Assembly (NCBI GenBank): GCA_017506865.1
Contig: JAFCMP010000223.1
Coordinates: forward strand, 1,302,001-1,366,000
Direction of reading: 5' to 3'
DNA: 64,000 nt
Source: Tribonema minus
Lineage: Eukaryota > Sar > Xanthophyceae > Tribonematales > Tribonemataceae
The notes beneath the pieces are model-generated. The model ran no database searches, was not told where the DNA came from, and was given only the letters and a program-made list of their open reading frames with translations. The translations under genes and the position numbers were made by a program. This document shows, piece by piece, positions 10,101 to 61,196 of this stretch. Within the stretch, counting starts at the first letter, position 1, and the number at the start of each line of letters is the position of its first letter.

Positions 10101-13100
10101 GCGATACCGCAGCTGCGCGCGTGCCTGGACGGCGGCGGCGGCAGCAGTGCTCAGAACGGCGGCGGCGGCGGGGGGTACCGCGCGAGCGATACGGAGATGC
10201 TGTCGAGCAGCTGCGCGGCGGTGCTGGAGGAGCGGTCTTGCGAGAACCTGGGGAGGGCGCTGCTATACACGCGCGGCGCGGCGGCGGACGCGGAGGCGGA
10301 GGTGCGGAGCGTCACCGGCTGCTGCTGGTGGTGTGAACTTCATGTAGACGTGCTTCGCTCTTGTGCTAGAGTTGGCGTCCCGGTCTCTATGGGCAAGCCA
10401 ATGTCATCGGCTGCTGGTGGTGGTGGTGGTGTGAACTTCAAGTGTACGACACGCTTCGCTTTTTGCTAGAGTCGGCACGCAGGTCTTGTGATAGAAGCAG
10501 TAATCTAGTGTGTGTTGTAGCAAGTATTGCACCAAGTGGATTGGCGGGCTCTGGGGAGCTGCTTCTCGCTTCTGTCAACGATTGGTACACGTATTACTTC
10601 AACGTCACCGCAGGGTACAGAACCTCTGTGCAAACAACGTGATAGTTGCGCAGCTGCTGACCTGATGAAAAAGGAAGGTACAGCTCTCATGTACGGCTGG
10701 GGTCTATAATCAGACGTCCTTCTGTTACACCACCTCTGTGTCCTGACCGGTCAGACCCTCTTGCACGGAGACCTCGATTGTGCACGGGACACACAGCATC
10801 GATAAGCTTCATGGCATGGCTGCCATAAATGTTTATTACCATAACCCTAAATCTACTTCTAAGCAGCAACAGTGCCCAACTGCTTAGCTGCCGCAGCAGT
10901 GCTCAACTGTTGTCGCAAGCGCTCAAGCCATGCAGTCAGTGCGAACGCGCCCTGCGCCGGCATGACGCAGTCAAGCAACAGCCCGTCGGCCCGCTGCTCA
11001 ACGAGTACTCGCCTTGCGGCGGCGTTGGACTGCGCTCTTTTGAACTTCACAACTTCCTTCCCCTCACCACCATCATTCAGGAGCGCTGCAACAATACCAA
11101 CTCACTCTCGAGCGTCGCTCGCGACCCCCCTGCGCTCGCCCCCCGCAGGCGCTGTACGCGCGCGCGGCAGCGGCGCGCGCCTCCGACCCCCTCCTCGACG
11201 AGCCGCTCGCGGCGGCCATGGACGCGCGCGCGTGGCTCTCGCTCGCGGACCTCGTGCGCCGCGCCGGCTCGCACGAGCGCGCCACGGAGCTGTACAAGCG
11301 CGCGCAGGCGCTGCGCGAGCGCGCCCTGGGGCCCGCGCACCCCACCGTCGCGGCGTGCATGGAGGGGCAGGGGAAGGTGGCGCTGGCGCGCGGGAGGGGG
11401 GCGATGCCGGAGGCGGAGGCGAAGTTCGCGGCGGCACGCGCGCTGCGCGAGGCGTACTTTCTGGACGGGCACCCGTCCATCGCGGCCGCGCTGGAGCGCG
11501 AAGCCGGTCAGTTATTGAAGTAGCGCTTCAATAATGTACTTCAACTACTGATGCTCGGTGTTCTGTGTTGCTGGAGCGCGAAGCGGGTCAGTGCTTGAAG
11601 TAGCGATGCACTTCAACTGATGTACTTCAACTAGTCATGCTGGGTTTTGTGTGGTCTGGTGAGCGCTCTGTGTGCAGTGTGTCGCGGGGCGCGCTGCCTG
11701 TGCTGTCGCAGCGTTTGGGGCGGGCATTTCCTCAGTGAAGCACCAGTCGTGCGCTCTTCGCTGGTGCTGAGCTGCAGAAGAAGGTGCACGTGCACAGCTG
11801 CAGCAGCGCTGACTTAACTTGTCCTATATACCAATACAAACATGGGCAAGTAGTTCAGGCCGACCGTACGCTCACACAACCGCTCACACCACCGCCTCCT
11901 CCGCCGCGGCGCAGAGGTACGGTCCATGCTGGGCGATCTGGAGGGAGCGCGCGCACGCCTGCAGCGCTGCCTCGACATGCGCACGGCGGCGTTCGGCGAA
12001 ACCGACAGGACAGTCGGAGAGACGCTGCACATGCTCGCCGCGGTGCTGCTGCGGCAGCTCAGGGGGATGTCGACGACGGAGGGGGGGGGGAAGCCGCCAC
12101 TCAACGCGCGCACCCCCTCCATGGCGCTGGGAGCATCGCCCTTTGACCGGCTCGCGCCGCGCAGCGCCCCGTACACGCAGGTGCGCTGGTGTTGAAGTTT
12201 CTCTGCGTATGTTTGAAGTTCCTGGGTGCCTTGTCTGGATGTTTGGCATCCCTGCTGTGGCGCTTGGAGCGCCGCCCATTGACCGGCTCGCGCCGCGCAG
12301 CGCCCCCTACCATGTTGGTGCGCTGGTCTTGAAGTTCGCCGGGTGTCTTATTTGAGGTGTTTGTGGTGCCTGGTCGGAAGTTTTGGCATCCCCGCTGTGG
12401 CGCTTGGGGTGGCATGGCTCTCAGGCAACGCCCGCATGCATGTTCACGCACAACTCCGCAGGATCTCGCAACATCAGGCGGATGTGTATCTTCAAGTCTC
12501 AAGCATCGCTGTGCTGAGCACCTGACAATGACCTTGAAAGTTGAAGTGACGATGAGGAACTGAAGTTGCAGCAACCCTCCTCCCCCACCCCCAGTCGTCA
12601 ACGCCACAACAGCTGCGCGCCGCACACACGCATTCATCCTCGTTTATTCTCCGCCCTCAGGTACCGGAGGCAGCTCCGGTAATCCAGCAGGCGGAGGCAT
12701 TCCTCAGGCGCGCGCTGAGCATTCTGGAGGGGTTCAGCGGCGAGGGGGAGGGAACGATGACCGCAGAATCTGGTGACGTAGTGGCGATGCTCTACCGGCT
12801 GCTGCTGGAGACAGGACGTATCGATCAGGCGGAGCCGCTGGCGGAGCGCTGGGTGACGTGGCTGGAGGACCAGGGCCGGACAGAGGCGAGTCACTTCTTC
12901 ACATTTGAAGTTTTACTCACATGTGAAGTTCACTGTCTTGGCAATCAAGTGAATGTTGTGTGTTTTCTGTACCAAGGAGGGCCGGACAGAGGCGAGTCAT
13001 TACTTCACGGGCGAGGTTGCTACTTCACATGTGAGGTCCACTGTTTCTGTTTTCTCATGAGTGTGCATTTTGGATATTCTCACTGAGGGACAGAGGAAGA

Positions 13101-16100
13101 TCAGGGCCGGGCGAGTCACTACTTTACATGTGAAATTTCACTACTTCATGAAGTTTCCTTCTTCACATCATAAGTTAATTATTTCCATCATTAAATATAT
13201 TTCATGTTCTATACTGGGTGACAGCGGAGGACCACGGCCGCACAGAGGCGAGTCACTACTTCACACGTGAAGTGCACCGTTTCCGCCAATTCATGAGTGT
13301 ACCGTGTGTGTGCTTCGTACTGACTGAACAGAAGAGAACCACGGCAAAGGTGAGGTTCTTCGTTATTTTGTGGCATTACATCAAGAGCATGCGACCAGTG
13401 CGCATGGAACAGCGGGCGCAGCACGCATGGCCAACGCGGTCAAGTGCGGCGAAAATTTCTGGCTGGTGCGCGCCTAAACGCTGAGGTCCACACTGCCGCC
13501 AGGCCTACACTTCAAACGGGAATTCGAAGACCCAGGGAGTGCCCACCACCGACGTGTGACGTACGTACATACCTAGAGGAACTCTGCCGCAGAACAGTCT
13601 GGAGGCAGCACAGTTTCTGCGCCCAAGTCTGCTTCACCTTGTGGCGCTTGCTATCTGGGGCGGGGGGGGCTCACCGGCAGCAGCAGCTCCGGCCTGCGCG
13701 TCCTCCGCCTTGAAGTACAGGCGCCAGCAGTGGCAGCGGCACCAGCAGCGGAGGCGGGTGATCACCCCCCCCGCCCTTGCAAAGAGCAAGCGCCGCAAGG
13801 TTAAGCAGACTTAGGTGCAAACACTGCGCTGCCACTGAACTTTGTAGCAACGAGTTCGTGGCCACCGGCAGACTTGCGGGGGCAGACCTGCTGGCAGAGT
13901 GGCAGTTTTGCTCCGCAACAGCTTATGAGAGTGTACTGCGGGAGAATAAGCACACGCTGCTCATCGTATACACTTACAACTTCATAATGTTACATGTTTT
14001 CGTGAAGCAAGCAATCGTGTACAATCCCCCCCCCCCGCCCTTGCCCCCCCCTTACCTGCTCTGTCTGGCGAGCGCACGACAGCACCAGAGCCTTTGTCGT
14101 CGCAGGTCTGATAGGCATCTGAACCTACACACACCTTGGCAGTTGTGAACTGCTGTTTTTACAAGCTTCATCCTGCCCATGAGAATCGAGAGTGTCATCG
14201 CATGGCATGCAGACCATGCAGTCGCGGTCAGTTCACAAACAGAAGTGTATGCATGCATATATATGTATATTTATACATACACATACATGTTACATGAGGT
14301 CTCCAACGGCGCAGAGGTATGTAGCTGCTGTCCTGCAGCGAGAATGTCAACGCGTGGCATCCAGGCCATGCGGCCGTGGTCACTTCACACGCGGAAGTGC
14401 CGAACTGAACGGCAGAGTCGGCGAGGCTCGGTATTTTCACAAGGGCGACCCAAGCGCGACCACTGGTAGTATTGTGGACTTTTCCAAGCTCAGCACTTGT
14501 ATAATAAGTGAAACCCCGAAGTATTGTGGACTGAAACAGAAGAGTTGGGGATACGCGCATGTCCGTTATGTTGGGCTTTCGCTTACCATACAAGTTCTGA
14601 GCTTGAATAGTCCACAATACTTTCAGTAGTCGGGCTTTGGTCGCCCTAGTGAAAGAATCGGCCCTCGCACACTCTGTCGTCAAGTTGCTTGTGAAGTGAC
14701 CACGACTGCAAGGCCGGGATGCCATGCGTTGACATTCTCGGTGCAGGACAGCGGCTGCGTCTGCGCTGTTGGGGGCCTCATATGTAGTGTGTGTATATGT
14801 ATAAAGATGTTCTGATTCGCATCCATATATACACTACTTGGTATATCATTCAGCGCGCGCGTGGCAGCACCAAGACACCTCTTCGTTCAATGACGTTGTC
14901 ACATTCGCATGCAGGCTCCGGCCCGTGCGGGATAGCGACTTATGCGCGCCCCATTTCAGACCTCATGGGCACCTCAGTGCACACTTCTAAATGCATGCGC
15001 TCAGGCATAAATCCTCTCATGAATTATCATGTACTTGAAACTAATATACTTCCGAAGTATGTTTATATGTATTAGTCCAGAGGTGCTGACATTGCCCCAT
15101 CGGCATGCCATGTTTGGCCTTTTCAGGACAGCGACTATGCGCGCGCCGTTGGAGACCTCACAGGCACACCAACGCACACTCATAACTGGATGCGCTCAGA
15201 CACAAATTCTCTTTTGAAGAATTTCCTTATTATGCACATGCTTTGCAGGTACTGACATTGCCCCATCGACATAATGTGTCTGGCCCATGCAGGACAGCGA
15301 CTATGCGCGCGCCGTTGGCGACCTCATAGGCATACAGCGCGCGCTAGGGGGCCCGGGGCGCGACGTGGAATCGCGCATGTACGACTTGCTCGCTGCGGAG
15401 CGCGCGCTGTACGGCGACGAGTCACTTGAAGTTGCCGCGGACCAGGACGCGCTCGCCAAGGTCCTCATGGAGAAGATGATGCACTGCCAGGTGAGTCACT
15501 GAGTGAGTAAGTGAGTGACTTTGATTATAGTTGCCGTGGCCAGGCCGCGCTTGCCAAGGTCTCCATGGAGCAGTCAATGCGCTGCCAGGTGAGTCACTGA
15601 GTGAACAAGCGAGTGAGTGAGTGAGAGACTCTCATGTGCTGATAGTAATGAGTCACTTGAAGTCGCCCAGGACCAGAATATGCAGGTTAAGGTCTTCATG
15701 GAGAAGATGATGCACTGTTATGGGGGTGAGTGAGTCACTGAGTGAGCAGGTGATTGACTCTTGTGCGCTCTGATGGCAACGAGCCGCTGCTGGTCAATTT
15801 GTGCAAGGTGCGGTCAATCTATGTACAGTAGATTGCTGCTTTCAACAACACTCAACTTTTATTGAAGCGTGCAATACAATCATTGATGGATGTAGGCGGA
15901 GCCGCTGCTGGTCAAATGGCTCAAGACGCGGCGCGCCATGTGCGGAGCGCAGTCTCTGGAGGTTGCGCGCAGTCTCATCAATTCATTCATTTGTTCATTG
16001 TGTTCCAATGTGAACGCAGGTGAAGCCTCTGCTGGTCAAGTCGCTCAGACGCAGCGTGCCATGTGCGGCGCGCAGTCGCTCGAGCCACGCGCACTCTCAT

Positions 16101-18868
16101 CAACTCATTCATTCATTTGTTCGTTCACATTCATAACGCAGGCGGAGCCGCTGCTGGTCAAGTCGCTGAAGACACGCCCCGCCATGTGCGACGCACAGTC
16201 GCTCGAAGTTGCGCGCACGCTCAGTAGTTACTGATTCATCCACTCGTTCATTCATTCATTCATCGTGTTCAAATACGAATGCAGGCGGAGCCGCTGCTGG
16301 TCAAGTCGCTCAAGACACGCCGCGCCATGTGCGGCGCGCAGTCGCTCGAAGTCGCGCGCACGCTCAGCAAGCTCGGCGCGACGCTGCTCGCGCAGCACGC
16401 GTACAAGAAGGCGGAAGAAACGTTCCGCGAGGCCTTCAAGATCAACGCGGTGAAGCGCGGGTTCACTCACCCTGACACGGTGGCCAACATGCGCTCCATA
16501 GGGCTCGCGCTGTGCCGGCAGGTCAAGTACGAGGAGGCAGAGCCGTTCTACGAGAAGGTGGTCAAGGCGGACTACGCAGCGTACGGCACGGAGGAGTGCA
16601 CCGAGGTATGTATTTATGCATGTATGTATGTATGGGTCTGTTACCGCATGTATTGATGTATGGGTGAGGAGGCAGAGCCGTTCTATGAGATGGTGGTGAA
16701 GGCGGACTACGCGGCGTATGGCACAGAGGAGTGCACCGAGGTATGTATGTTTATATGGGTATGTGTCCATGTATGAGTGATGCATACCGTACATGCACGC
16801 TTGACTGGCGGAGGTGTTCTATGAGAAGGTGGTCAAGGCGGACTTACGCGGCATACGGCACGGAGGAGTGCACCGAGGTATGTATGTATGTATGCATGTA
16901 TGTATGGGTATGCGTCTATGTATGATGAAGCATACAGCGGCACGGAGGAGTGCACGGAAGTATGCAATGGTGATTGTGTTTGTGTATGGGGTGGTGCATA
17001 CTGGTGCGTGTGTCCCCTGACTGGTGTGGCGGTGCCAAGGCGGACTGGTGGCATACGGCACGGAGAAGTGCACCGAGGTATGTACTTCAAGTAAGTATGT
17101 ATTTGAAGTATGAATGCCGCCGCGCCATAAGCAATCGGCACCGCTTGTTTCTTCATCTTCCGGCCCTGTTTTCTCTCCTCTCCCCCTGGCCAACTGAACC
17201 TCGTTGCCGCCGCCGCCTGCCTACCTTTGGCATGCAGTCTTGCATTGCGACCAACTGCAAAAAAATGAACGTGACATCGCAGCTGTGCAGGCGAGAGCCC
17301 GCGCCTACATGTGCGGTAGCGCCTCACAGTCGCCGCCGCCGCACACCACCCTATCTCACACACACGTTGCACGTGATCTATGAGCTGAACGTGCCCGCAG
17401 TGCTGCGCTGTAGTATCGATAATCATCTTGGCTGTTTTCATTCCCTCAAGATTGAGGCATTGACAAGAGGCACATGCAATTGTTGTCTGCCGACCAGGTC
17501 ATCAACAAGCTCAGTATGCTTGCACTATAATAAGTTGGAGTACCAGTCATCCATCTCCACTCTTTGATGTCGTTGTGAACGAGGCATGAAAGTGAATGAC
17601 GCATCAAAACTGAAGGCGCTTGCAATCTTTGCCTGCTGATGCGCGCACCGCCGCCGTCGACAGGTGATCAACGAGCTGAACGTGCTCGCGGTGCTGCGCT
17701 ACGCGATGGGCCGCCTCGACGCCGCGGAGCCCATGCTGCGCAAGGTCCTGGAGCTGCGCGAGAAGGTCGTGGGGCCCAACCACCCCGACGTCGCGGACTC
17801 GCTCATCAACCTCGCAGCGCTGCTCAACTCCAAGAGCCGCTACAGCGACGCGCTGCCGCTGCTGGAGCGCGCCCTCGACGTGTGCCGCGCGGCCAATGGC
17901 ACGGAGCACCCGGACACGGTCGCGTGCCTGGACCGCATCGCCGAGACGCACCAGAAGATGTCGAACTTCGATCTTGCGGAGGTGGTGTACGCGGAGGCGC
18001 TGGAGATTAATGAGCGCATGCACGGCAAGGAGCACTACTCGGTCGCGGAGACGCTCAGCGACTTGGGCGAGCTGCTGCACAGGACGGGGCGGCTGCTGGA
18101 GGCGGAGGACGTGCACAAGCGCGCGCTCGCGATCCGCGAGACGCTCTTCGGGCCGCACCACGAGACGGTCAAGGAGTCGTGCCTGTGCCTGAGCCTGCTC
18201 ATGGGGAAGCTCGGGCGCACGCAGGAGGCCGAGTTCTATCAGGAGAAGGCATCGCAGGTGAGCGCTGCTTCCGTGTTGAGCGCTGCTGCTGCGGTGCTGG
18301 TTATTTTGAGTGCGCGCTTACGCGCCGGCTGCTGCGCAGGCGCATCGGAGCTCTCGGAAGCCTCAGCTTCACGAAACGCGTATTTTCACGAGGCTCTTTT
18401 AGGCTCCGTAAACACAAGCACGGGGGCATTGCGGCAGGGGTGGGTGGAGTTCGTGTTTGCTTGAGTGTGACCGTGGTGATTTGGGTGCACGTTGCAGGCC
18501 CAGAGCTAGCATGTACCGCTGCGGCAATGCTGGTGCTGCAGGGGCAGATGCAACTGCCTTTGCGTTACCATTCTCCCTCACTGATCATTCTGGCAATCCT
18601 GGTGATGCAGGCGCAACACCACACTGGCACAGGCATCCACCATTCTCTCTTCTCGTTGTCACTCTGGCAACCCCAACCCCACACTCTACCCCTGCCAAAT
18701 CAGGTGCGAGAGAAACTCGGCAACGGGGGGCGCGGTTTCGGCCGTGGCGGCGCCTCTGGCAGAGGCGGCGGCGGCCTTCAAGCAGCAGCAGGCGAGCGGC
18801 GGAAGCGCAAGGATCCTACGCAAGATGCCGTCAATCGCAGCGTGACGGCGCTTCCGACAGGGGAATGA
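7167..18868 (+). CDS. NB-ARC / TPR (kinesin-light-chain-like repeats) STAND ATPase
   Basis: Nine exons, all phase-compatible: 7167-9318, 9748-10301, 11149-11506, 11915-12180, 12661-12885, 15293-15490, 16285-16605, 17664-18257 and 18704-18868, giving about 1610 residues. Residues 10-110 resemble a PH fold (IELTDIRSVARV; ending SFDIAAYTDAETVDIERCL). The NB-ARC core follows: a degenerate P-loop SPTATGKT (Gly278-Lys279-Thr280, first Gly missing), kinase-2 LDDVW (379-383), RNBS-B LLVTTRSDR and a GLPL-like GSPPLA. A low-complexity linker leads to a winged-helix-like segment with ALGYDLHAAVV. From exon 3 on, TPRs of the kinesin-light-chain type recur (AEPMLRKVLELREKVVGPNH; ERALDVC; HKRALAIRETLFGPHH). 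STAND proteins of this kind act as ATP-gated sensors; NB-ARC-TPRs are proposed immune receptors in brown algae. The exon 5 donor appears to be GC (GAG|GCGAGT). The last exon is uncertain: an acceptor 7 nt further in (exon from 18711) gives a different tail ending MPSIAA at 18843. Confidence 0.85.
10311..10470 (+). repeat. Tandem duplication in intron 2 of NB-ARC-TPR gene
   Basis: Two copies of a block of roughly 100 bp begin GGCTGCTGGTGGTG, continue with GTGAACTTCA and CTTCGCT, and end in TGCTAGAGT. It lies just after the exon 2 donor at 10301. Confidence 0.7.
11490..11640 (+). repeat. Exon 3 donor duplication
   Basis: The exon end CTGGAGCGCGAAGCCG|GTCAGT at 11491-11512 recurs at about 11570-11592 with one base changed, followed in both by TTGAAGTAGCG and CTTCAACT. 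The first copy is in phase with exon 4. Confidence 0.8.
12110..12440 (+). repeat. Exon 4 donor array (3 copies)
   Basis: The last 60 bases of exon 4 (GACCGGCTCGCGCCGCGCAG) plus the first 70 of the intron are repeated from 12258. A third, truncated copy starts at 12398 (TGGCGCTTGGGGTGGCATGG). TTGAAGTT lies just inside the intron in the first two. Confidence 0.85.
12862..13354 (+). repeat. Exon 5 donor array (about 5 copies)
   Basis: The block GGCCGGACAGAG|GCGAGTCAC plus ACTTCACATGTGAAGT-like intron sequence occurs at about 12874, 12980, 13105 and 13233, with a remnant at 13332. The GC dinucleotide at the donor is kept in the first four copies. An AT-rich insert interrupts the third (13160-13205). 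Confidence 0.8.
14255..14815. repeat. Large imperfect inverted repeat (foldback) in intron 5
   Basis: The left arm (about 14255-14530) matches the reverse complement of the right arm (about 14575-14815) along nearly its whole length, by eye near 80%. Landmarks: GAGAATGTCAACGCGTGGCA at 14340 pairs with the complement of TGCCATGCGTTGACATTCTC at 14720; AGTATTGTGGAC at 14468 pairs with GTCCACAATACT at 14611. The right arm holds a degenerate copy of the exon 6 start (CAGGACAGCG), so the left arm holds it inverted. A shorter direct copy of part of the arm lies at about 14180-14245. Confidence 0.85.
14741..15330 (+). repeat. Exon 6 acceptor array (4 copies)
   Basis: Sequence like CAGGACAGCGACTATGCGCG followed by GTTGGNGACCTCAT appears at about 14745, 14920, 15125 and 15290. 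Identity to the functional copy (last) rises toward it. The third copy also keeps the CACTCATAAC...GCGCTCAG tail shared with the second. Confidence 0.85.
15430..15740 (+). repeat. Exon 6 donor array (3 copies)
   Basis: The end of exon 6 (GCCAAGGTCCTCATGGAG ... CACTGCCAG|GTGAGTCACTGAGTGA) is copied at about 15541-15620 and, more diverged, at 15660-15750. Each copy is followed by a run of GAGTGAGT-type repeats. Confidence 0.85.
15780..16310 (+). repeat. Exon 7 acceptor array (5 copies, about 123-bp period)
   Basis: GCGGAGCCGCTGCTGGTCAA starts copies at about 15780 (short), 15894, 16018, 16141 and 16285; the last is the functional exon. Copies two to five carry the next 75 bases, through GCCATGTGCGGCGCGCAGTC, then diverge or hit stops. 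Between copies lie CATTCATT-type repeats. Confidence 0.9.
16540..17095 (+). repeat. Exon 7 donor array (5 copies)
   Basis: GAGGAGTGCACCGAG|GTATGTAT ends the functional exon at 16605. Near copies end at about 16740, 16876 and 17077, plus a weaker one at about 16960. The upstream coding part (TTCTATGAGAAGGTGGT) accompanies the first three. Confidence 0.9.
17360..17700 (+). repeat. Exon 8 acceptor copies
   Basis: Two degenerate versions of the exon 8 start (GTGATCAACGAGCTGAACGT at 17664) lie at about 17372 and 17496. The first keeps GAGCTGAACGTG and GTGCTGCGCT. Confidence 0.7.
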
Positions 18869-22390: not shown

Positions 22391-22394
22391 AGAT

Positions 22395-29941: not shown

Positions 29942-29986
<45 letters not shown>

Positions 29987-34939: not shown

Positions 34940-34964
34940 TGCTCAGTGTTAGCGATGCTCAGCA

Positions 34965-43506: not shown

Positions 43507-43529
43507 GGATCGTGCCCGTGGGCATTGAA

Positions 43530-43558
43530 GGGGGGGGGGGGGGGGGGGGGGGGGGGGG
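43530..43558. repeat. Poly-G run of 29
   Basis: Longest homopolymer seen in the window, 23 bp after the GAF gene stop codon. Confidence 0.95.
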
Positions 43559-43725
43559 TACGGTATGGTGCTGGTGCTAGTGGTTGTGGTCACGTAACGT
43601 GCAGCGACGGCGCATTCGTATGTGATTAGAGTGTAGGTATGTAAATAGCCCAGCGTGTGGTGTACATTACTTTGCATACTGGCTCAGGCTGGTGTGGGGT
43701 TCGTGTGCGATGTTTTGACTCCTGC

Positions 43726-45344: not shown

Positions 45345-48300
45345 ATGTGCGCATCGGACACGGCTGCCGCGGCAGCACCGCGAAAGGAGGTCTTGATCAT
45401 GAAGCAGCGGCACATGACTCTGAACCCAATCTCGCTGACAAGAGATACTGTGGCAGCATGTAGGCACCACTGGAGGGAGGGCACGTTCAACTGGCCCATG
45501 GGCATCTACATTACCCTGGTTCACGTGGCGGCCATCATCGGAGTCATGAACGTGCCCGCGGCGAGCTGGAAAACGCAGCTGCTGGCGTTCGCCTTGTGGC
45601 CAATATCGTGAGTCGAAACATGAAACTGATCATCATGTCGCGCGTGTAGTGGCCACGGTGCATGCTGCTGCACCAGCGGCGCTATGCATTCAGCTCGTGG
45701 CTGTGATATGTGAGTGCCCTGCAATTAGCTGTTGCACCAGAAGATGCGTTGAGCAAACCCCCACAGATGAGAGTCGAAGGCTGCTGTCATGCAACTCGTC
45801 GCTAGCACGGCTCATGGCTGCACAATATAAGCTATGTGTCGAACACCGACCAGCACTTCGTCAGGGAAGCGAATTTTGTAGAGCTCGTCGTCGCAAGAAG
45901 GCTACAACCCCCCCCCTTTGAGTTCTCTCACATCTATGTACTCATGAAGCCGAGGCACTGAGTGAGAGCAGTCCTCATGCAACAAATGCTCAATTGGAGC
46001 AGTGCAGATTTCCCATGCACACAGGCTTCATTGTTCCAAATTTGAATTTAAGTTTTACCTTTGCTGAAAATGCTGGCAGCACCGACCTTGAAGTCAAGCT
46101 AAGCAAGGGGGTTTACTGTCACAACTCTATTGGGCAACGAGCTGTTTATGCTACACACTCAAGTTTTGCTTCTTGCTTGCTGCTATATAGCTCATACAGT
46201 GGCGTGCTTTCTGAGTTGTTTTTGAAAAGATGTACCAGCTTCATAATTATGGTTCCATGCATGTGTTCATGCAAGGGCAATGCCATGGCTATGGATCCAC
46301 GCAGCGAGTCGTTGTTAGAACGTTGCGTTCAAATGCGTTGCAGTGAGTACCAATCTATGATACCCGCCAAACTCCTAGCTATTGCCAGGTGCGCTGAAGA
46401 ACTAGTGGCCTGCTGCAGAGGGGGGCGTGCAACAAGGACGGGAGGGGGGGTGGGGGGGGAAAAGGGGGTTAGCACGGCTTAACATGACCAAGGGGATGGG
46501 ATGTGTGTGTGTTGGGGGGGGGGGGGGGGGGGGCACCTGCCCTCGCCCCCCTCTGCAGTGAGCAAACATTGCACTCAAAAACACGTGCGTTGCCATTACC
46601 CCCCCACACGGCGGACTTCCAGCGTACAGCATACCTACCGCTCCACTTGCTTTCCGCATGCGCCTTGCGTGTGCACACGCCATCATGCCCAATGCGTCAC
46701 CCACACGAGTTTTTGCACTAAACGTACCTAGGCTTACCTAACACTAAGCGCCTCCACTGTCAAAGCGTATCCGTCCGGTAGTTGAGCCAAGTTCTACACG
46801 TGACGCTCCGCCGTGCGCCTATATCCATATTCATACCTACCCGTCATCCATCCATTGCACTCAGCATGCTCAGCATGCGCCTGTGTGCCCATACCAATGC
46901 CTACCCCTCTGTGTTTGTATGCCTCGCTGTAGCCTCGGCATCACGCGCAGTGCGCTCCGCCGGTACTCGTACGGTGCGCGCGCCTTGTATAAGCATGACG
47001 CGCCTTTATACCCATACCCCCCCCTCCCCCCCCCCCTTCGTGTGCGCCTCGCAGGGGCCTCGGCATCACCGGCGGCGTGCACCGCCTGTGGGCGCACCGT
47101 TCTTACGAGGCGCACTGGAGTGTGCGCGTCTTTCTCATGCTCATCAACTCGATCGCGAACCAGGGCTCCATCTACCACTGGTCGCGTGACCACCGCGTCC
47201 ACCACAAGCACTCGGAGACGGACGCCGACCCGCACAACGCGCAGCGCGGCTTCTTCTTTGCGCACATGGGCTGGCTGTACGTCAAGAAGCACCCGGAGGT
47301 GATCGCCGCGGGGCGCACGCTAGACTTCTCGGACCTGGAGCGCGACCCCGTCGTCATGTTTCAGGTATGTATGTATGGCTGCATTGTGTTTGTGCATAAA
47401 AAGCATGTATATACAGTACATTGGGATAGAACGCTGCTGTCCTGGTGCGGCGGGGCGCACACTCATGGTCATGTTTCAGATACGTAGGTATGGCTGCGTA
47501 CTGTGTGTGTAACGCATGTGTACAGTGAACAACACTGGGAGATGAGCGCTGCTGAGGCGGTGCTTGGTGGACCTCCCGGGCCTACCATGTATGCAATGTG
47601 CGGTGACATTATGCTGCAAGGTGTGCTTGTACCCCATTCATGCGGGTACCCCATTCATGCCGGCTGGGTAGGAATCCAGTGTCACATGCGTCAAGTGATT
47701 GTGTGTCATATGAGGATCCCACCCCGACTTTTCTTGGATGTGCATCAGTGTGCTCAAGGTGCTGAGTAACCGTTGTCTTCCTGCGCGTGTGTGATTACCG
47801 GTATGCTCAAAAGTCTTATGCTGTTGCTCAAACTGCCATGTTCCGCACCCACTGCAGCGTCACTTTCGGACTCGCCTGAAGTACAAACAGTGCCTCGTTC
47901 TGTGTGGCCCACGCTTTTTGACACCTTTCATGCCATCCACACAACCCCCTCTAACCCCCCTTACCCCCCCCCCCCCCCCTCCCTCTTGCAGGACCGCCTG
48001 GACCCCTGGTTCGCCCTCTTCATGTGCTTCTTCTTCCCCGGCCTCGTGGCCAAGTACGGCTGGGGCGAGAACTTCTGGGTGGGGTTCTGGGTCGCGGGCG
48101 CGCTGCGCTACTGCTGGGTCCTCCACTGCACGTGGTGCGTCAACTCGGCCGCGCACATGTTTGGCGACCACCCGTACGACAACTCGTGGCCCGCAGAAAA
48201 CCCCGTAGTGTCGATCCTAGCCGTCGGCGAGGGCTGGCACAACTGGCACCACAAGTACCCCTTCGACTACGCCGCGAGTGAGTTTGGCGTCGCGGCGCAG

Positions 48301-49880: not shown

Positions 49881-51520
49881 ATTGGTGGTAGGCACTTGCG
49901 GCTAATCATCCCTTGTCACCTAGAGCTCTACGATCTTTTGATTCGTTTTCATGTAGAATTTTGGAAAAGTTTGAGTGACAGGCAAGAGAGAGGCGCAACA
50001 AACGCTTCTTCTAAAATGTATATACTTCAAAGTACGCACTTTCAGAATCACGCAGAATGACATGTGTGGATCACCTGTACTTGATGACCCTTGTCAGCCC
50101 ATCAGGGCATTAACTGTAACATCATACGCAAAGTCTCAAGGACGTTGCAGACGGCAGAGCCTCCAGCATTATCATTGTCTGAGGGTTCATTGATGTCACA
50201 ACTCGGAGCTAGTTCAGAACACAATGCTGAGCGCTGCCTGCTTGCAATGCGTGCCGCCCTCCAAAGCAGCGCAGCAGAAAAAGAGCATGAGAAAATGGGA
50301 AAAGGGGCCAGTGGTAAGCGACCACTACTCAATCACTGCATCGAGCGCATACATAGGCCATGGCAGCTACAGCTGCAAACGACGTGCGCACTAGCGCAGC
50401 ACACACCCCCCCACCAGCCGGCCGTGATTGCGCATCGATCACTGAACCTATCGCTACCGGCGGACTTCCTCTCACCCACGCCTGTGCTGCCAAAACAAAA
50501 AAAAAAAGCGCCCTCTCACGCACGCCGGGCTGCCCTAAAGAAGCGCCAGCCTTCGCACGCCCAGCTGCCTCCGCAGCCGCATGCGCAGCTCCTCGAGGCG
50601 CCCCGCGTGCGACAGCGCATAGTGGTTGAGGCATGCCTTCACGGCATCAGCGCTCAGCGCCTCGAGCTGCGCGACCGTGGTCCCGTGCGGCAGCTGAGAG
50701 GGGGCGTCGCCGCGCTGGTTGGGGACTGGCTGGAGCACCTCGTGAGGTTCCTCCCGGCGCTGGTTAGCGCGCTGGGCCTGCAGTATGGTCTCTTGCTGAT
50801 GCAGGCCAGCTAATCTGCTGTCGATGCCACCGAGCCGCGTGTTCACGCCGTCGAGTCGCGCGCCTACGCCGTCGAGCCGCGCGATCATGCCGTCGAATCG
50901 CGCTTCAACTTCAAGTTGAACTTGCGTCAGCTGCGCCTCCATGTTCGCCACCCGGGTGTCGAGACCTCTGAGCTGTGCACACATCGGCGCGAGCGCTTCG
51001 GCGAACGCTTCGGCGATTGCGCTGCGGAGGGTGGCCTCAGTAGTAACGCATGAAAGTACTACTGGTGCTGCCTGTGTAACATCCACAGTAGCCCTGCCAG
51101 CAACGGCCCCCGACTCAATGTTACTGGAGCCTGGAACTACTACTGGTGCTGCCTGTGTAACAAGCGCAGTAGCCCTGCCAGCAACGGCCTCCGAAGCGAT
51201 ACCACTCTTGCACAGGTCCTGTGTGTGCTTGGCCCTTTTGGCCGGTCTCGCCACGATTTGCTCTAAATCAACAGCTCCGTCATCGGTCGCCATATGCACA
51301 CCCGCAGCTCCGTCAAATGGTGGTGCGAACTGCATAGCGAGGGTGTGGCGCTGCGTCTGCCTTCCCAGCAGTACAGTACCTGTGAGGGCAGGGAGCAGCA
51401 GAAATCCAACATAGAAGTTTGACTCGTGGCCAATGACTGCAGCAGCGGCGACCACGGTTATTGGAAGGCACTTGCGGTTAACTAGAGCTCAACGATCCTT
51501 TGATTCGTTTTTCATAGTAG
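49881..51520. mobile_element. Possible element bounded by 60-75-nt direct repeats
   Basis: A direct repeat at 49881-49956 (AGGCACTTGCGGCTAA ... CTAGAGCTCTACGATC) recurs at 51459-51520 (AGGCACTTGCGGTTAA, CTAGAGCTCAACGATC, TTTGATTCGTTTT). Between them lies the minus-strand coiled-coil/SAP-like ORF, which starts just inside the right repeat. This suggests a 1.6-kb mobile or duplicated unit, but no transposase or integrase is visible. Confidence 0.4.
50535..51335 (-). CDS. Coiled-coil protein with C-terminal SAP-like motif
   Basis: Single-exon minus-strand frame of 266 residues from the ATG at 51335. Order: a basic, nuclear-localisation-like RPAKRAKH; two copies of AGRAT-VTQAAPVV; a helical AEAFAEALAPMCAQLRGLDT segment; a heptad array (RFDGMIARLDGVGARLDGVN and on); and a C-terminal VAQLEALSADAVKACLNHY ... 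GRLEELRMRLRRQLG that follows the SAP DNA-binding pattern (L--L----K--L--Y-L---G---EL--RL). Possibly a nuclear DNA-binding protein encoded by a repeat family. The ORF is followed by a T-run on its own strand (complement of 50488-50506). Function unknown. Confidence 0.5.
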   Translation of the reverse strand: MQFAPPFDGAAGVHMATDDGAVDLEQIVARPAKRAKHTQDLCKSGIASEAVAGRATALVTQAAPVVVPGSSNIESGAVAGRATVDVTQAAPVVLSCVTTEATLRSAIAEAFAEALAPMCAQLRGLDTRVANMEAQLTQVQLEVEARFDGMIARLDGVGARLDGVNTRLGGIDSRLAGLHQQETILQAQRANQRREEPHEVLQPVPNQRGDAPSQLPHGTTVAQLEALSADAVKACLNHYALSHAGRLEELRMRLRRQLGVRRLALL

Positions 51521-54500: not shown

Positions 54501-54589
54501 GTGTGGAGCGGGTGACGGCATCACGGATCGCATAGAGACAAAGCTCAAGTTGCCTTTCCGGCACCGTTCTCCTGATAGGCACACAAAGG
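51521..54589. other. Region with no confident gene
   Basis: A plus-strand frame from an ATG at 51541 to 51903 (MVEGEAIGLSGTDSVIGVAI) and a minus-strand exon-like segment near 52420-52370, between TCGCAG and GTGAGT, are the best candidates; neither matches a family. Poly-G runs at 52602-52617 and GAGCACTGCTG-type motifs at 52875-52925 are notable. 53640-54580 shows nothing supported. Confidence 0.35.
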
Positions 54590-57500
54590 ATGGCGCACGA
54601 GGCAGGGGCTTCGCTGGGCTGGGGCTCCCTGGCAGTGGAGCTGCCTCTGCTCTTCAGCACGACCGCGGCATGGGAGCCATCCCAGCTTCAGCTGGCGGCT
54701 CTCTTGTCTCTATGCTGTCTGGTCGCGTTCTACAGCCTGAGGTATTATTCAGACGCGCAGGGCAAGCGGGTGGCAGCAGCGGGGCCAGAGGTCAGCAGCA
54801 GTGAGGTCAAGACGCCCTTTGCATCGCTGAGCGAGCGCACAGAGAGCTTCAAGGCGGCCTTCCAGAGCGCGCTGAATTACCCATGGGCGATGATCGAGAA
54901 TCCCGTGTCGTTTGCCTTTGTGGAGTCGGAGCAAAATCGCACGCTGGTGGAGGCAGTGAAGGCGTGCGGCGCATATGCTCCTACGCCATGGGTCGTCAGT
55001 AGCATCGGTGGTCACATTCAGGTCAGCAGAGTGTTGTGCCCGTGCAGGTCTAGTCTATGTGTGACGCGTCAACGACAGTTGGTCTTTTCTCTTTCCTTGC
55101 GCCTGGCGCCAGGGCATGCGGTGCAATCGTCCATGCTACTCAAAAACTGCTAGCTGCAGCGCTCAGTGCTGCTGGCAGCGGTGGCCAATGTGTTGCTGTC
55201 ATCGCTGCCTTGTTTTTGCCTGGCGGACTGAGTGGCCATCACGGCCGGTACAACGTGAGTTGGCGTGCACTGAGCTCGTCATCTTACGCTGATAATCGTC
55301 GACACATCAGTGGGCTCGGCGAGCTTGCTGTGCAAGGCACCGCAGGCGCTTTCGCTGTCGCAACGACTGCAGGTTTTCATCTTCTCGCCAAAAGGTCCTG
55401 CTTCACATCATGCTTTTTTTATCAGAGACATGAACGAGGTCGCTGTAATGACCCTCACTGAATATACACACTAGGCCGTCATCATGGCTGTGCTCCCATA
55501 TACGCAAAAACATGACTCAACACCGCTTTTCTCTTGTGACCCCATGTCATCAGCCCCTGGTTGATGATTCTCATACCAGCATGTATGTCTTGTCATCCGT
55601 TCGTGCCCTTGCTGCAGAGCGCCGTATTTGTGTCGCAAGCACGCCTGACGTCGTGCTGCTTCCTCACGTCCGTCTCATCGTCTGCAGCTCTTGTCCGACA
55701 TTTACTTGAAAGTGTTTCTACTACATGTCCAATTGTTTTGAACTCTGTTTGCTTGTTCTCAATTCTGCGTGTTGCAGAGCGCCATGTTTGCCATGTGGTG
55801 CCCGCCCAAGGTCTGGAGGCAGACGGGGAAGATGACGTGCAAGAAGGACCTTGTCAAGGTGCGCATGCATGTATGCCTGCAAGAAGGAGTATGTATGTAT
55901 GCCTGCAAGACCGACCTTGTCGAGGTGCGACACACATACATATGTTGTTCGCACGCATCACGAATCATGATGTGTGACAACTCACAACTATGGTCATATT
56001 TTTTGTGCATCTGCATGTGTGTGTGCGTGTGCCGTGGAGGTCCAGCCACATCACGTCGGCCGCGCAACGTCGTGCGCATCACCTACGTACTCAGAATGCA
56101 TGTCAGTCGTGCCCTACGTATGCAGTGCCGTGCAGCACCCTCTGTCGTATTGTTCCATGAACTGCCCCAAGCACAGCGGTATGCATCCTCAGAAATGGGC
56201 AGTACGACAGGTGAAGGCACTCGCCACGCCTGCCACGTTGCTGCTGCGCTGGCGCGTGTTGGAGCAGCATTGCCTTTTTCACTGTTCGGTAGTGCGGCGA
56301 GACACGACAGCAAGTTTAAGCTCGAGATTGTAAGCACTCGGACGATGTAGCTTGAGTCAGTGCTTAGCTTCACACGTTGAAGCCTATGGTCACTGTAGCA
56401 GGCGGTGACTCCCCTCTTATTTGCCGCAATTGGCCACTGCGCGCGCCGCCAGAGCTCGCGTTCACTTGGTAACTTCAACTGCGCGTGCGCCTCACAGGAG
56501 TAGCGCGACGGCGGCGCGTTTCGTGTGGTGCGGTGGGACGCGTGCGTGACATGACCACATCTGCCTATCATGTACTCTGCGTTTACGGCAGCGGGTGACG
56601 CACCCCTGCTGCCATTACCGCCTCTGCAGAGCTCTCGCGACGGCGGCGCGTGGTGCGGTGGACCGCAAGCACGGCAAGAACATATGTTGGGTTAGTTCGT
56701 GTATTGCATTCACAGCAGCAGCGACTCACCACACGCTAACTTCAACTGTGCACGCCCTCCCCCCTTCCCCAGCGCTCGCGCGACGGCGGCGCGTTTGGGG
56801 TGGTCTGGTGGGACGCGAGCGCGGCATGATCACACAAGGCCGATGTTTACTCTATATACACTTCAGCAGGTGACTCACCACACACACACACTTCAACTGT
56901 GAACGCGCCCCTGCAGAGCTCGCGCGACGGCGGCGCTTTCGGCGTGGTCTGGTGGGACGCAAGCGCAGCAGGCGCGCCGCTGCCGTCCACCGCGCCTGTC
57001 GTCATTATGCTGCCTGGCGTCGTGGGAAAGCCGGATAACATCTACCTCAAGCGCATGGCGCTGCACTTGGCGCACCGCTACGGGTGGCGCACGGTGGTGA
57101 AGGGGTGGCGGGGGCTGGGCACGGAGCTCACGACGCCGCGGCCGGAGACCTGGGATGACACCGCTCTGCAGGTGAGGTGACTGTTAGGGCTAGGATTAGG
57201 GTCAGGGTTAGATGGGATGACACGCTTCTGCAGGTTAAGACAACTGTGAGGGGGAGCTGGGGCGTAGGGCTAGGGTGAGGACTAAGGTCGCTTGTTCTGG
57301 CCGTGGCTGGAGACGTGGAATGACACCGCTCTGCAGGAGGTGACTGTGAGGGCTAGGGTCAGGGTTAGCGTTGGGACTAGGGACACTTGTTTAGGCAGTA
57401 GCTGGAGACGTGGGATGACTCGCCCTGTAGAGTAGATCAGATGCATACAGAATGTACACACATTTTGGCTGCTGAGGATTTCGCAGCCAAAGACGTCAGG

Positions 57501-60500
57501 CATTACCGGTTTACACCCCAGCGGCCTGCAGGTGTGTGGATTGCTGGTCAGGGTAGGGCCAGTATTAGGGCTACAACTACTCTCAAAAGGTGAGGGCTGG
57601 GTTTAGGGTCAGGGTTATTTTTCTCCAGATCCCACATGTGCAGGCTCAGTGTCGGTTGGTTATCTATCTACGCAGCTCTCCATGTAGGGCAGCATGTGTG
57701 AACATTACAATTGCTTGCCTTTTGATGTTAACGTTCAGTTTGCGGCGTTGGCCATAGCTCAACTTCAACCGTTATTCAACTCCTGTGCGCTCAGGACCTG
57801 CTGGATGCGATAGCGTACGTGCGCGGCACAATAGGCCCAGGCGGCCCCCGTGTTGGGCGTGGGGTTCATTCAGCTTTGGTGGAGCGCTGCTGGCAACCTC
57901 AACTTCATCTCATCAGAACTTGAAACAATCTATTACCTCGCTCCATGCGCTCTCAGGACTTACTGGATGCGATAGCGTACGTGTGCGGCACCGTAGGCCC
58001 TGGCGTTCCCATGTTTGGCATGGGCTGCATTTTTGGAGGAGCGCCGCTGACGACATCTAAACTTCAATAATCTACTTCACCTCCCGTGTGCACAGGACTT
58101 GCTGGATGTGATAGCGTACGTGCGCGGCACGATAGGCCCTGGCGTTCCCATGTTTGGCGTGGGCTTCAGCTTTGGGGGAGCGCTGCTGACAACGGCGGTG
58201 GGCACGGTGCCGCGCGCGGTGCACACGCTGTCCGCCGTAGTCAGCGTCAGCGGGTTGTTTGACTTTGGGTGAGTCGTGAGTCACAATTCTAGAGTCACAG
58301 ACACGGGTCACTAGGTATGTATATATCGGCCGTGGTCAGCGTCAGCGGGCTGTGTTCGACTTTGGGTGAGTGATGAGTTGAGAGCCACAATCAAGAATCG
58401 TACAGAACAGGGAGGCAGTTCGAGGTTTGCTTGGGCACAAATTTCTAAATATTCAAAGAAGCTTGGATGATCTACATCTAAAATCACAGGAAATAAACGT
58501 CCTGAACTTTGATTTGTTTTTCTGATTACATGAATATCAAATTTTCTAGCGTCAAGTCCTATTGTGGCATAGAATCCTGAACGTTGTAGATCTTTGAGAT
58601 GCACCTGTTGAGTGTGGTCTGTCGTGTTGGCCGTGCGCAGTCAGCGTCAGCAGGCTGTTTGACTTTGGGTGAGTCATGAGTTGTGCGTTGAGAGTCACAG
58701 TGACGAGTCATACGGCAGGGGGGCAGGCGGGGCGAACCTGTCATTTGAGACGCACACGTTGAGTGTGGTCTGGTGGTGGGGACATTGCTAGCTTGTGTGC
58801 TCGTTGAACCAGCAGAGAGTAATTTCTCATGTACTAAGTTGAAGTACCGGCTTCCGTGGTGGCTGGTCAGGTGACCAGCGGAGAGTCACTTCTCATGTAC
58901 GAGTTGAAGTACCAGCTTTCATGGTGGCGCGTTGATGCCCATGGCTTAGGGCCATAGGCCCCTTGGGTGCAAGCCAGCAGTTTTGCGGCCATGGTCCTTT
59001 GCTGAATAGCATTGCGTGTGCATGTACTGTAGGTAGGTTGATGCACAAATGGACCTTAAGCCACAGCGGTGCCGCCGCGGTGCGCGTGCATGCACAGACA
59101 TGCTCGGTGACAGGCGCTGTAAACGCGTCGCGTTGACCAATTATGACGATCGCAATTTTGTCAACAGTGAATACTCTATGTAGTGTGACCCAAACCCCAA
59201 CTAAGTAGGGCACACGCAAGACACCTCCTGTGCCAATAGCCGTGCGAGCAATACTCCCCCCCTGACCCATCAAGCCCAACAACACCACGGACAGTCAGGC
59301 AGACCCCCTGCCTGTGATTTGTCATCGATCAACCTAGCCTCCCTCACATCACACTTTGTCCCCCCCGCCGTCGCTGCGCCCCCCCCCCCCCCCCCCTTCC
59401 CGCTGCCCGCAGGTCCATGCTCAAGCACGTGGAGACGCAGTGGGGCTGGCTGTACGACGCCATGAACGCCAAGGTCACCGTCGCCAACTACAAGCGCTTC
59501 AAAGTCCTGGACGTCGTGTGCACACCCGCGCGCTCTGCCGACACCGCCGCCACCAGCGCTGCGCACGCTGCTGCCACTGAGGGTTTCAGCGTCGACGCCG
59601 CCGCCGCCGTCGCGCTGCCGGAAGAGCAGCGGCGGCGGCAGCAGCAGCAGCAGCGCGCGGATGCCGCCGCTGCCGCCGCCAACACCGTCGCCGCCGCCGC
59701 CGATGACACGTCGCACACGGTGCTGGCGAGCGGCACCGTGACACCTGCCGGCGGTGACGTGGGGAGCAATGCTGCTACTGCTGCGGGGGAGCAGGATGCT
59801 GCGGCCGCGGTGGCGGCGGCAGTCGCGGCGGCGGCGGCGCCGGCTGCGAAGCTGCAGTCGGACGGCAGCAGCGACGACGACGCCGCTTCCGAAGTGGAAG
59901 AGGTGGTGACGATCAGCTCCCTCGGAGACATCGGCGGCAACGGCAGCGCTGCCTACAGCAGCAGCAGCAGCCGCAGCGCTGGCCCCACTGTCACGGTGAT
60001 CGGCGATGGCGGCAGTGGCGGCGGCGCTGCGGTCGCCGTCAAGACGATACCGGCGCTGGAGGAGAGCGAGCTGGCGGCCATCAAGGGGCACCGCGACTTC
60101 CACAGCATCTTCACGGTGCCGTTCTCGGGCGACGCGTCCGTGGACGACTACATTGTGCGCGTGGAGCGCATGCACGCGATTGGGCGCGCGCGCGTCAACG
60201 TGCCCGTCCTCGCGCTGCTCGCCGAGGTGAGGGTTAGAGTTAGGATTAGCGTTAGGGTTGGGGTTAGGGTTGCGCGCGCGCGCGTCAACGTGCCCGTCCT
60301 CGCGCTGCTCGCCGAGGTGAGGGTTAGGGTTAGGATTTGCGTTAGCGTTAGGGTTAGGGTGGGGCGCACGCGCGTCAACGTGCCCGTCCTCGCGCTGCTC
60401 GCCGAGGTGAGCGCGCGCGCAGCCCTAACCCTAACCGCCGTAACTGCTGTAACTGTCGCCGTCGGGCGCGCGCGCGTCAACGTGCCCGTCCTCGCGCTGC

Positions 60501-61196
60501 TCGCCGAGGTGAGCGCGCAGCCTCAACCCGAACCGCCGTAACTGCCGCTCCGCGCCTGCGGCGTCGCCGGGCAAGCTGCAGCACTGTACGAGGGTGCTTT
60601 CGATTCTGTTTGCTGAAGCTAGCGAGGGGCCACTACGCTGTAACTGCCGTAACAGCCGCATGCATGTCGCCGAGTCGCAGTATTGCAGACGAAGACTCTG
60701 AGCCCTAACGCTGACTGCCCCCGCCCCCCTCCCCCCCCCCTGCGTGGCAGGATGATCCCCTGTGCCCCCCGCGAGCTGGGTCGACTCGCTCAAATCTGCG
60801 GCGACCAACGAGAACATCATCGTCGCGCAGACGCGCAGCGGCGGCCACTGCGGCTGGTTCACGGGCATGGCCGGCGATTCCTGGCTGGATGAGGCCGCGT
60901 CGCGCTTCCTTGCAGCAGCACTCAGCGCCGAGACCGCTAACAAGCAGGCCGGCGGCGGCGCGCGGCGCAGCAGGGCCGGCAGCAGTGGGAGCGAGCGCGC
61001 GGCGCGCAGCGTCAGCGGCGGCGGCAGCAGCAGCGGCGGAAGCAGCGGCGGCGGCAGCGGCGGCGCGGGTGGCGACGCCCGCGGCAGGGACGCGAGCAGC
61101 AGCAGCGCTGGCAGCGACAGCACGGCGGTCAGCAGCAGCAGCGGCGGCGGCAGCGGCGGCGGCAGCGCGGCGGGCGCGGAGCTGCGCACGGCGTGA
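54590..61196 (+). CDS. Alpha/beta hydrolase, ABHD1/3 - EMB8 (YheT-like) family
   Basis: Exons: 54590-55021, 55778-55858, 56917-57171, 58096-58268, 59413-60226 and 60751-61196; phases agree up to exon 6. An N-terminal membrane anchor is likely (LQLAALLSLCCLVAFYSL). Family landmarks follow: SSRDGGAFGVVWWD, VVIMLPGVVGKPDNIYLKRM, GWRTVVKGWRGLGTELTTPR, and the nucleophile elbow GFSFG (Ser281). After a 190-residue Ala/Ser-rich insertion (about 59520-60060), exon 6 supplies the putative catalytic Asp in DDPLCP and His in GGHCGW, then a Ser/Gly-rich tail. Relatives hydrolyse esters or phospholipids. Exon 6 is broken: DDPLCPP and the ASWVDSLKSAATNENIIVAQ segment are in different frames, one base apart, across the C6 run at 60765-60770. 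One missing C, a sequencing error or a real mutation, would explain it. Confidence 0.85.
55610..55935 (+). repeat. Copies of the exon 2 boundaries of the hydrolase gene
   Basis: An acceptor-like copy (TGCAGAGCGCCGTATTTGTG, 55615) precedes the functional TGCAGAGCGCCATGTTTGCC (55774). After the donor (GACCTTGTCAAG|GTGCG, 55858) the block recurs as GACCTTGTCGAG|GTGCG at 55913. Confidence 0.7.
56490..56980 (+). repeat. Exon 3 acceptor array of the hydrolase gene (4 copies)
   Basis: GCTCGCGCGACGGCGGCGC-type exon starts follow an acceptor-like AG at about 56495, 56630, 56771 and 56917 (functional). GTGGTCTGGTGGGACGC is kept in the last two, and TTCAACTGTG(A/C)ACGC precedes them. Confidence 0.85.
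57145..57430 (+). repeat. Exon 3 donor array with TTAGGG-like spacers (4 copies)
   Basis: The exon end ACCTGGGATGACACCGCTCT then GCAG|GTGAGGTGACTGT recurs at about 57215, 57318 and 57407, each time with intervening GGGCTAGGGTCAGGGTTAG-type sequence. Confidence 0.85.
57785..58200 (+). repeat. Exon 4 acceptor array (3 copies, about 150-bp period)
   Basis: CAGGACCTGCTGGATGCGAT at 57792 and CAGGACTTACTGGATGCGAT at 57955 precede the functional CAGGACTTGCTGGATGTGAT at 58093. The copies extend over 110 bases, through the nucleophile-elbow codons, then end in frame-shifted sequence. Confidence 0.9.
58225..58690 (+). repeat. Exon 4 donor array (3 copies)
   Basis: GTCAGCGTCAGCGGGTTGTT then TGACTTTGG|GTGAGTCGTGAG ends exon 4 at 58268. 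Copies lie at about 58334-58376 and 58638-58679. The second copy is interrupted by an acsF fragment. Confidence 0.9.
58419..58592 (-). pseudogene. acsF: Plastid acsF fragment (nuclear insert of plastid DNA)
   Basis: A sharply AT-rich 174-bp segment reads on the minus strand without stops as 58 residues: DLQRSGFYATIGLDARKFDI, HVIRKTNQSSGRLFPVILDV, DHPSFFEYLEICAQANLE. This matches the C-terminal region of the magnesium-protoporphyrin IX monomethyl ester oxidative cyclase (AcsF/CHL27; D-QRS-FY--IGLDAR-FD--VI--TN---GR-FPV-LDV). Codon use is A/T-ending, unlike nuclear exons here, so it is best read as plastid-derived DNA inserted antisense in an intron. It is a fragment and non-functional. Confidence 0.85.
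58691..59412 (+). other. Rest of hydrolase intron 4
   Basis: Contains a tandem duplication (ACTTCTCATGTAC(T)(A)AGTTGAAGTACC at about 58824 and 58887, each with GGT..CCAGC(A)GAGAGT before it) and a poly-C tract (59380-59398) before the acceptor. A minus-strand frame at 59288-58893 is not supported as coding. Confidence 0.6.
60175..60540 (+). repeat. Exon 5 donor array with TTAGGG-like spacers (4 copies), open in frame
   Basis: CGCGTCAACGTGCCCGTCCT then CGCGCTGCTCGCCGAG|GTGAG occurs four times (about 60190, 60281, 60370 and 60473), separated by GGGTTAGGGTTAG-type sequence in the first two intervals and CCCTAACCCTAACCG in the third. The exon frame stays open through all copies to a stop at 60539-60541. 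Confidence 0.95.

Follow-up and report, generated by a model that had tools for sequence, protein, structure and literature searches.

Do the exon-intron junctions of this genome attract duplication of their own sequence? The question was raised by a 64,000-nucleotide stretch of Tribonema minus DNA (contig JAFCMP010000223.1, positions 1,302,001 to 1,366,000; hereafter the window), in which a sequence-only reading had described blocks straddling splice sites as copied into the adjacent intron. Self-BLAST of the window confirmed that, at the places named, the end of an exon plus GT, or AG plus the start of an exon, is locally copied. A nearby intronic copy was present at 14 of the 51 confident predicted exon edges. 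Within our sample of the genome, the sources of such copies are centred on the junction. We think that this junction excess is genuine, of uncertain size (about 2-6 fold), and present in a subset of genes.

The assembly behind the window comprises 158 Mb in 554 contigs. Samples consisted of the window, 19 arbitrarily placed 10-kb stretches (254 kb together with the window), and LHC loci; larger sets covered 335 kb and ~352 kb. Genes were predicted independently of RNA using a self-trained hidden Markov gene finder, seeded with hand-read exons from the window and iterated on the ~352 kb. Those of the NB-ARC/TPR gene served as seeds, so the model of that gene is not independent. Unless stated otherwise, an edge was termed confident when its predicted exon was at least 80 bp long with a coding score of at least 20. 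Pair offsets were limited to 40-300 bp in cluster classification and in the one-directional test described below, and classification also dropped spacers of 150 bp or more. Excluded from all counts were 5 of 30 LHC loci as redundant (two of the 25 used still share 375 bp), loci L001, L002, and L052-L054, exons below 80 bp or of low coding score, and low-complexity or masked pairs. When 10 chosen proteins or parts of proteins from the random stretches were compared with Pfam, six matched a family (sulfite reductase, C2, FAD oxidoreductase, Myb, GST, and DUF4209) and four matched none; a further predicted protein is AP-1 gamma adaptin. The LHC domain had 92 matches in the assembly, and the single LHC stretch compared with the PDB hit LHC chains there. 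Labels of window genes (NB-ARC/TPR, TMEM65, desaturase, hydrolase, SGF29, and GAF) came from the sequence-only reading or from recognition in translations rather than from a family search.

Local direct-repeat pairs were abundant. The 254 kb contained 183 pairs, while order-2 shuffles yielded none, ruling out a chance origin. At a lower threshold of 30 bits, 335 kb contained 246 pairs, and shuffles of 254 kb again had none. As at least one pair was present in every one of 25 10-kb pieces tested, duplication of this local kind is a general feature of the genome.

Only part of this duplication involves splice sites. Among the 29 clusters in the window, 12 extend across a confident edge; another 11 fall within introns, 4 lie between genes, and 2 are of other kinds. 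The count of 12 is conservative, since at least 4 of the 11 intronic clusters (10311, 38682, 39767, and 42155) start or end no more than ~12 bp from a predicted edge. In the non-window sample, a copy accompanied 31 of 243 edges (15 of 123 donors and 16 of 120 acceptors), and at least one copied edge was found in 6 of 55 introns with two confident flanks. Junction copies occurred in 22 of 73 predicted genes, window included, and clustered by gene outside it (p = 0.003). Outside the window, copies were more frequent where introns exceed 800 bp (11 of 38) or fall below 150 bp (10 of 44) than where they measure 300-500 bp (1 of 61). In the shortest group, the apparent end of the intron may be a decoy called as an exon.

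These counts do not bear out the claims that every multi-exon gene is affected and that the repeated unit always spans the splice site: 17 of the 29 window clusters lack a clear span of a confident edge, and the 212 uncopied edges and 49 introns without a copy are the majority of the non-window sample. The sequence-only reading had held that anchoring would be chance or local if most introns lacked copies, or if copies were equally frequent away from splice sites. The former is the case in our sample. The latter is false in the one-directional test, with other tests weaker or null. Together, the scarcity of copies in most introns and the excess at junctions indicate that anchoring, if real, is statistical rather than absolute.

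Three tests of anchoring were applied: a circular-shift test, a same-intron test, and a one-directional test that was designed after the shift results had been seen. The one-directional test asks whether a given point has a partner on its intron side, with bootstrapping by locus, and we think it the most apt of the three. At non-window junctions, the copy rate was 4.6 times that of deep intron (confidence interval 2.1-10.5) and 8.8 times that of intergenic DNA (4.4-21), the control rates being 0.028 and 0.0145, respectively. Junctions exceeded both controls in all five overlapping identity cuts, and the lower limit of the deep-intron ratio stayed above 1 in each. Even among pairs of at least 85% identity, 8 of 243 edges were copied, or 3.7 times the deep-intron rate (confidence interval 1.2-25.6). 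The profile of copy sources gave the same picture. Rates were 0.13-0.14 from -10 to +30 relative to the junction, compared with 0.029 at -60, 0.041 at +80, and ~0.02 at +150 to +260. Junctions certified by homology also carried copies. Where an LHC exon overlapped a Pfam match, copies were seen at 9 of 73 edges, which speaks against an artefact of gene models as the entire cause; the profile at these exons also peaked at the edge (0.12).

The copies themselves look like neutral leftovers. In all 40 edge clusters (window included) the copy lay on the intron side, a result nearly required by the definition of an edge, at offsets of 60-240 bp and either adjacent to its source or separated from it by a spacer. 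The exon part of the unit measured 12-120 bp (median near 52), and the fraction of the unit that is exonic was skewed low (Kolmogorov-Smirnov p = 1e-4 with the window, 1e-5 without). In all 40 clusters, the nearest aligned unit took in only part of its exon (exons of 118-814 bp). Tandem duplication of whole exons was thus rejected for these clusters, although exons below 80 bp were excluded and small whole-exon copies would be missed. Aligned identity was 91.3% in the exon part and 87.6% in the intron part. Insertions or deletions within the exon part of decoys shifted the frame in 17 of 18 cases, which speaks against the decoys being conserved coding exons, and the suggestion that they fuel exon gain is unsupported. 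The unit was divisible by three in all five exon-internal clusters found, as expected if selection removes others.

Selection might instead retain the copies, if decoy splice sites or alternative exons were useful. Codon positions one, two, and three differed at rates of 0.058, 0.062, and 0.143, respectively, with third positions 2.4 times as variable as first and second, and one kinesin decoy still translates to almost the same peptide. Besides the frameshifts, retention of splice dinucleotides argues against such utility: GT was kept in 15 of 22 copies and AG in 14 of 18, which by our arithmetic is not above what a divergence of 9-12% alone leaves. We consider selective retention very unlikely. 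Decay along arrays was also less regular than had been described. Within the acceptor array at 15894-16370, identity to the working copy is 86% for the farthest copy but 77-78% for stretches that take in nearer ones. That functional copies lie outermost follows from the naming, as the copy contiguous with the exon is by definition the one called functional.

A more serious challenge is that there is no anchoring at all. Duplication would be uniform, exon-internal copies would be purged, and the apparent enrichment at junctions would arise from the conserved copy and from readers' focus on exon edges. Duplications do occur in intergenic and deep intronic DNA, and the difference in identity between exon and intron parts indicates that the conserved half slows decay. 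Several further results limit the case for a junction excess. Under the circular-shift null, 17 of 128 edges were spanned versus 14.8 expected. Pairs of at least 88% identity spanned 1 of 128 versus 4.4 expected, those of 80-88% identity spanned 9 versus 2.9, and other filters gave excesses of 1.0-2.4 times, with many settings significant and some not. In the same-intron test on non-window introns with confident exons on both sides, 15 clusters were at edges and 14 internal, against an expected edge share of 0.30 (odds ratio 2.5, p = 0.012; p = 0.11 at a lifetime bias of 2). Random loci alone supported an excess, with odds of 4.1 (12 versus 7, p = 0.0025), as did the window, where the pattern was discovered, with 4.4 (10 versus 8, p = 0.002), but LHC loci alone gave 1.0 (3 edge versus 7 internal). 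The LHC-certified profile was shallower on the intron side, at 0.06 from +60 to +120 versus 0.12 at the edge. With a full twofold lifetime bias, the deep-intron ratio would fall to ~2.3 with a lower limit near 1, and the intergenic ratio to 4.4. The gene finder also made errors, taking some decoys as exons and missing a helicase exon; its NB-ARC/TPR model includes two probable decoys as exons (16142-16210 and 16672-16740). The excess at third codon positions is compatible with neutral decoys but is not proof of them. Lastly, spacers resembled a flank (z of at least 3) in 3 of 20 spaced clusters at edges, 1 of 13 in introns, 0 of 9 between genes, and 0 of 6 of other kinds; as most are unlike either flank, not every case can be explained by a simple tandem unit.

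Repeat position depended on gene structure in the one-directional and profile tests, with the circular-shift and same-intron tests weaker or partly null. We think that the shift nulls are lenient and unsuitable, because any copy of an array counts although only the outermost one contains the working splice site. The lifetime bias expected from a conserved exon half was 1.35-fold in simulation, rising to 1.44-fold when many indels and a frozen exon part were assumed, well short of the observed ratios of 4.6 and 8.8. If duplication were uniform, the rate should level out within the intron, yet it drops from 0.13 to ~0.02-0.04 beyond +80, which speaks against slower decay as the explanation. The excess also persists among pairs of at least 85% identity. 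Absence of anchoring is therefore a possibility we take seriously but do not expect to be correct.

Local sequence might make junctions fragile, leaving the splice site incidental. Microsatellites of at least 12 bp lay within 80 bp of 8 of 45 copied and 9 of 247 uncopied edges, window included (odds ratio 5.7, p = 0.001). The 7-mer TTGAAGT/ACTTCAA occurred within 80 bp of 8 of 23 copied and 12 of 123 uncopied donors (odds ratio 4.9, p = 0.004), or 5 of 15 and 8 of 107 outside the window (p = 0.01), and was densest within 50 bp of the start of introns, at 2.3 per kb compared with 0.6-1.2 per kb further in. These p-values are uncorrected for the several features tried, and the 7-mer was first noticed in the arrays. 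On the other side, 37 of the 45 copied edges lack a microsatellite and 15 of the 23 copied donors lack the 7-mer. Acceptors showed no clear link with the 7-mer (p = 0.06 and 0.29), and at control points it accompanied lower copy rates. Neither GC content nor a GC step explains the junction excess, and neither do C-runs nor G-quadruplex (G4)-like motifs. We regard sequence-driven instability as unlikely to be the main cause, while recognizing that it overlaps with the account we prefer.

TTGAAGT/ACTTCAA is over-represented about eleven-fold in introns relative to an order-1 model, is frequent in intergenic DNA too, and has instances in introns of all sampled loci (e.g. L053, L054, and 11513-11600 of the window). 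Predicted introns of all sampled loci contain CCCCCCC at 5037 per Mb, ~17 times its density between genes (299 per Mb).

Exon-like sequence within introns could also be a trace of intron gain, with introns born by tandem duplication of exonic AGGT segments or as mobile introners. One spacer fits a mobile element: at L050:9712-9860, two 91-bp copies of an acceptor edge flank a dispersed element of ~140 bp with at least 40 copies, and these direct repeats abut it almost exactly. We take it to be similar to a short interspersed nuclear element (SINE), based on a tRNA-like box seen by eye. Of the three spacers searched genome-wide, the other two returned only themselves. Among 241 non-window introns, 2 showed the donor-to-acceptor homology required by AGGT duplication, and none of the 61 window introns did. 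Both cases are doubtful, as one lies in a satellite-like array and the other probably involves a decoy called as an exon. We rejected AGGT duplication on these grounds, and intron gain in either form is scarcely credible as the source of the copies.

The nearest published case that we found is a single potato gene in which tandem duplication over an intron-exon border created a new spliced intron and exon (PMC4974935). As here, real splice signals were copied across a border; unlike there, the copies in our sample would be unused, lie inside existing introns, and occur in many genes. The Rogers/Hellsten AGGT model, as outlined in the same paper, likewise adds GT and AG sites through local duplication within a gene while leaving the protein unchanged, but its source is exonic and its donor maps to an acceptor (PMC4974935), whereas our copies pair donor with donor and acceptor with acceptor. 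Introners also represent rapid intron change in algae and other protists but are dispersed copies of one element (PMC9860276), while each copy here comes from its own junction. Cross-locus BLAST (60-600 bp matches, LHC-LHC pairs excluded) revealed one family common to 7 sources and a few further pairs. An Rfam search with four copy sources gave no match.

Break repair offers another likeness, in short direct duplications with or without a spacer. Direct repeats on either side of filler DNA have been noted in end joining (PMC3296678). In our data, spacers are present in many pairs of the edge, intronic, and intergenic classes, and 15 of 48 match other sequence of the same locus. Such a pattern is compatible both with break repair involving filler or template switching and with slippage followed by later rearrangement. 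Work on patch repair in rice reportedly describes tandem duplications from break repair, and no junction preference is known to have been described for such duplications or for filler DNA. Among the papers returned by our literature search, we recognized no account of junction-anchored copies.

Our data suggest that the most probable explanation, which we favor with some reserve, is pervasive local direct duplication with an excess at junctions, in which decoys are neutral and the excess is probably mutational. A local direct-duplication process would act throughout the sampled genome. When a copied segment straddling a splice site lands in the intron, we infer that the outer site stays in use; the copy would then be tolerated and decay as a neutral decoy, while copies inside exons would be removed unless in frame. 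In a subset of genes, segments centred on junctions would be copied at ~2-6 times the rate of deep intron or intergenic DNA. This excess would be tied to the exon-intron transition, most likely through replication or break-repair template switching near junctions. The recurrence that the sequence-only reading had proposed is upheld by the 22 affected genes, their clustering, and the difference between paralogues described below; slippage, R-loops, nicks, and template switching, its candidate causes, are indistinguishable here.

A stronger variant would have duplication directed by the junction itself. A mark tied to transcription or splicing, such as an R-loop edge, a stalled spliceosome, or a copy templated by pre-mRNA, would cause ~110 bp around the splice site to be duplicated into the adjoining intron, one gene at a time. 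If so, introns would grow from their own borders and gain spare splice sites in the process. We hold this variant to be doubtful.

The junction copies of the window all lie on the + strand. The richest locus is the NB-ARC/TPR gene (7167..18866), for which the hidden Markov model, open reading frames, and self-BLAST together reveal copies at 7 of 16 confident edges. Donor-side duplications occur at 11490..11665 (edge 11506 then GTCAGT; offset 80, 80% identical) and 12122..12407 (edge 12180 then GTGCGC; offset 136, 80% identical). Donor-side arrays occupy 12849..13273 (edge ~12889, copies decayed), 15419..15759 (edge 15490 then GTGAGT; three copies, 84% and 76% identical), and 16531..17102 (edge 16605 then GTATGT; ~five copies with a GTAT microsatellite). 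Acceptor-side arrays are found at 14891..15335 (CAG then 15293, the edge being listed as ~15292; offset ~196) and 15890..16370 (GCAG then 16285, listed as ~16284; ~four copies). A possible donor-side duplication at 10311..10476 (offset 92, 79% identical) was classed as intronic; its edge is uncertain, with the donor at 10301 by the hidden Markov model and ~10320 by reading. A further pair in 17370..17700 (17370-17409 versus 17661-17700; 88% identical, offset 291) was not counted as spanning because its second copy begins ~3 bp ahead of the acceptor edge at 17663.

Other window genes contribute fewer copies. The desaturase gene bears a donor-side copy at 47353..47554 (edge 47364), with an exon part of 12 bp and a decoy lacking GT. 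In the hydrolase gene, acceptor-side arrays lie at 56503..56970 (edge 56916) and 57742..58193 (edge 58095), donor-side copies at 58231..58378 (edge 58268) with a further copy at 58629-58726, and a donor-side array of GGTTAG-type repeats at 60180..60545 (edge 60226 then GTGAGG). Two duplications serve as counter-examples. One, in an intron of the TMEM65 gene (38682..38828, + strand), starts 7 bp past the predicted donor and does not span it; copies in this gene adjoin junctions, or overlap one by 8 bp (42155-42279). The other, of like kind, is intergenic and was assigned to neither strand (51048..51194; offset 81, 89% identical).

Genes with recognizable homologues provide further examples, of which the helicase and kinesin cases were chosen because of repeated profile hits and are included in no count. 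In a gene matching Helicase_C, an exon ending in what we take to be motif VI is followed by ~four decaying copies. A kinesin exon that presumably ends in the P-loop has two donor-side decoys of 88-90% identity, with a weak acceptor-side match (73%) in the same intron, and another kinesin exon has one donor-side copy, 86% identical. In an AP-1 gamma adaptin gene, one predicted extra segment corresponds to a gap in the solved homologue.

Paralogues can differ in their arrays. Between two LHC loci that are ~90% identical where aligned, C1 has arrays at three junctions and C79 has none at the matching ones, as judged by eye and from the cluster list. One donor is at a slightly different place. Gain in C1 and loss in C79 are both compatible with this difference.

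Several other features of the genome were observed. About 10% of donors predicted in the training loci begin with GC instead of GT, an estimate that depends on the model. At L040:7814-9588, a 39-nt predicted exon recurs five times, every 420-460 bp, with two more on the other strand at 4890-5461; this is probably a satellite-like array. Positions 23943-24691 and 43727-44475 of the window each contain a 330-bp tandem repeat, and both match L044:2313-2841 over 529 bp at 98-99% identity. Different contigs share stretches that are identical or 99.9% identical (L007/L008 on C296/C490 and L020/L021 on C70/C489) and that are perhaps haplotigs. The RuBisCO small-subunit family had no match in the genome, a hint of a red-lineage plastid; the organism is probably a photosynthetic alga, perhaps with a plastid of that kind.

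For this genome, one practical consequence is that gene annotation suffers, since some copies resemble exons to a gene finder. More broadly, the lengthening of introns and the origin of spare splice sites are long-standing questions that have mostly been argued from a few single-gene cases. With a copy at about one in eight confident predicted edges outside the window, the process could be watched and counted here. If junctions are truly favored, mutation would depend on gene structure, a dependence that lies outside standard models.

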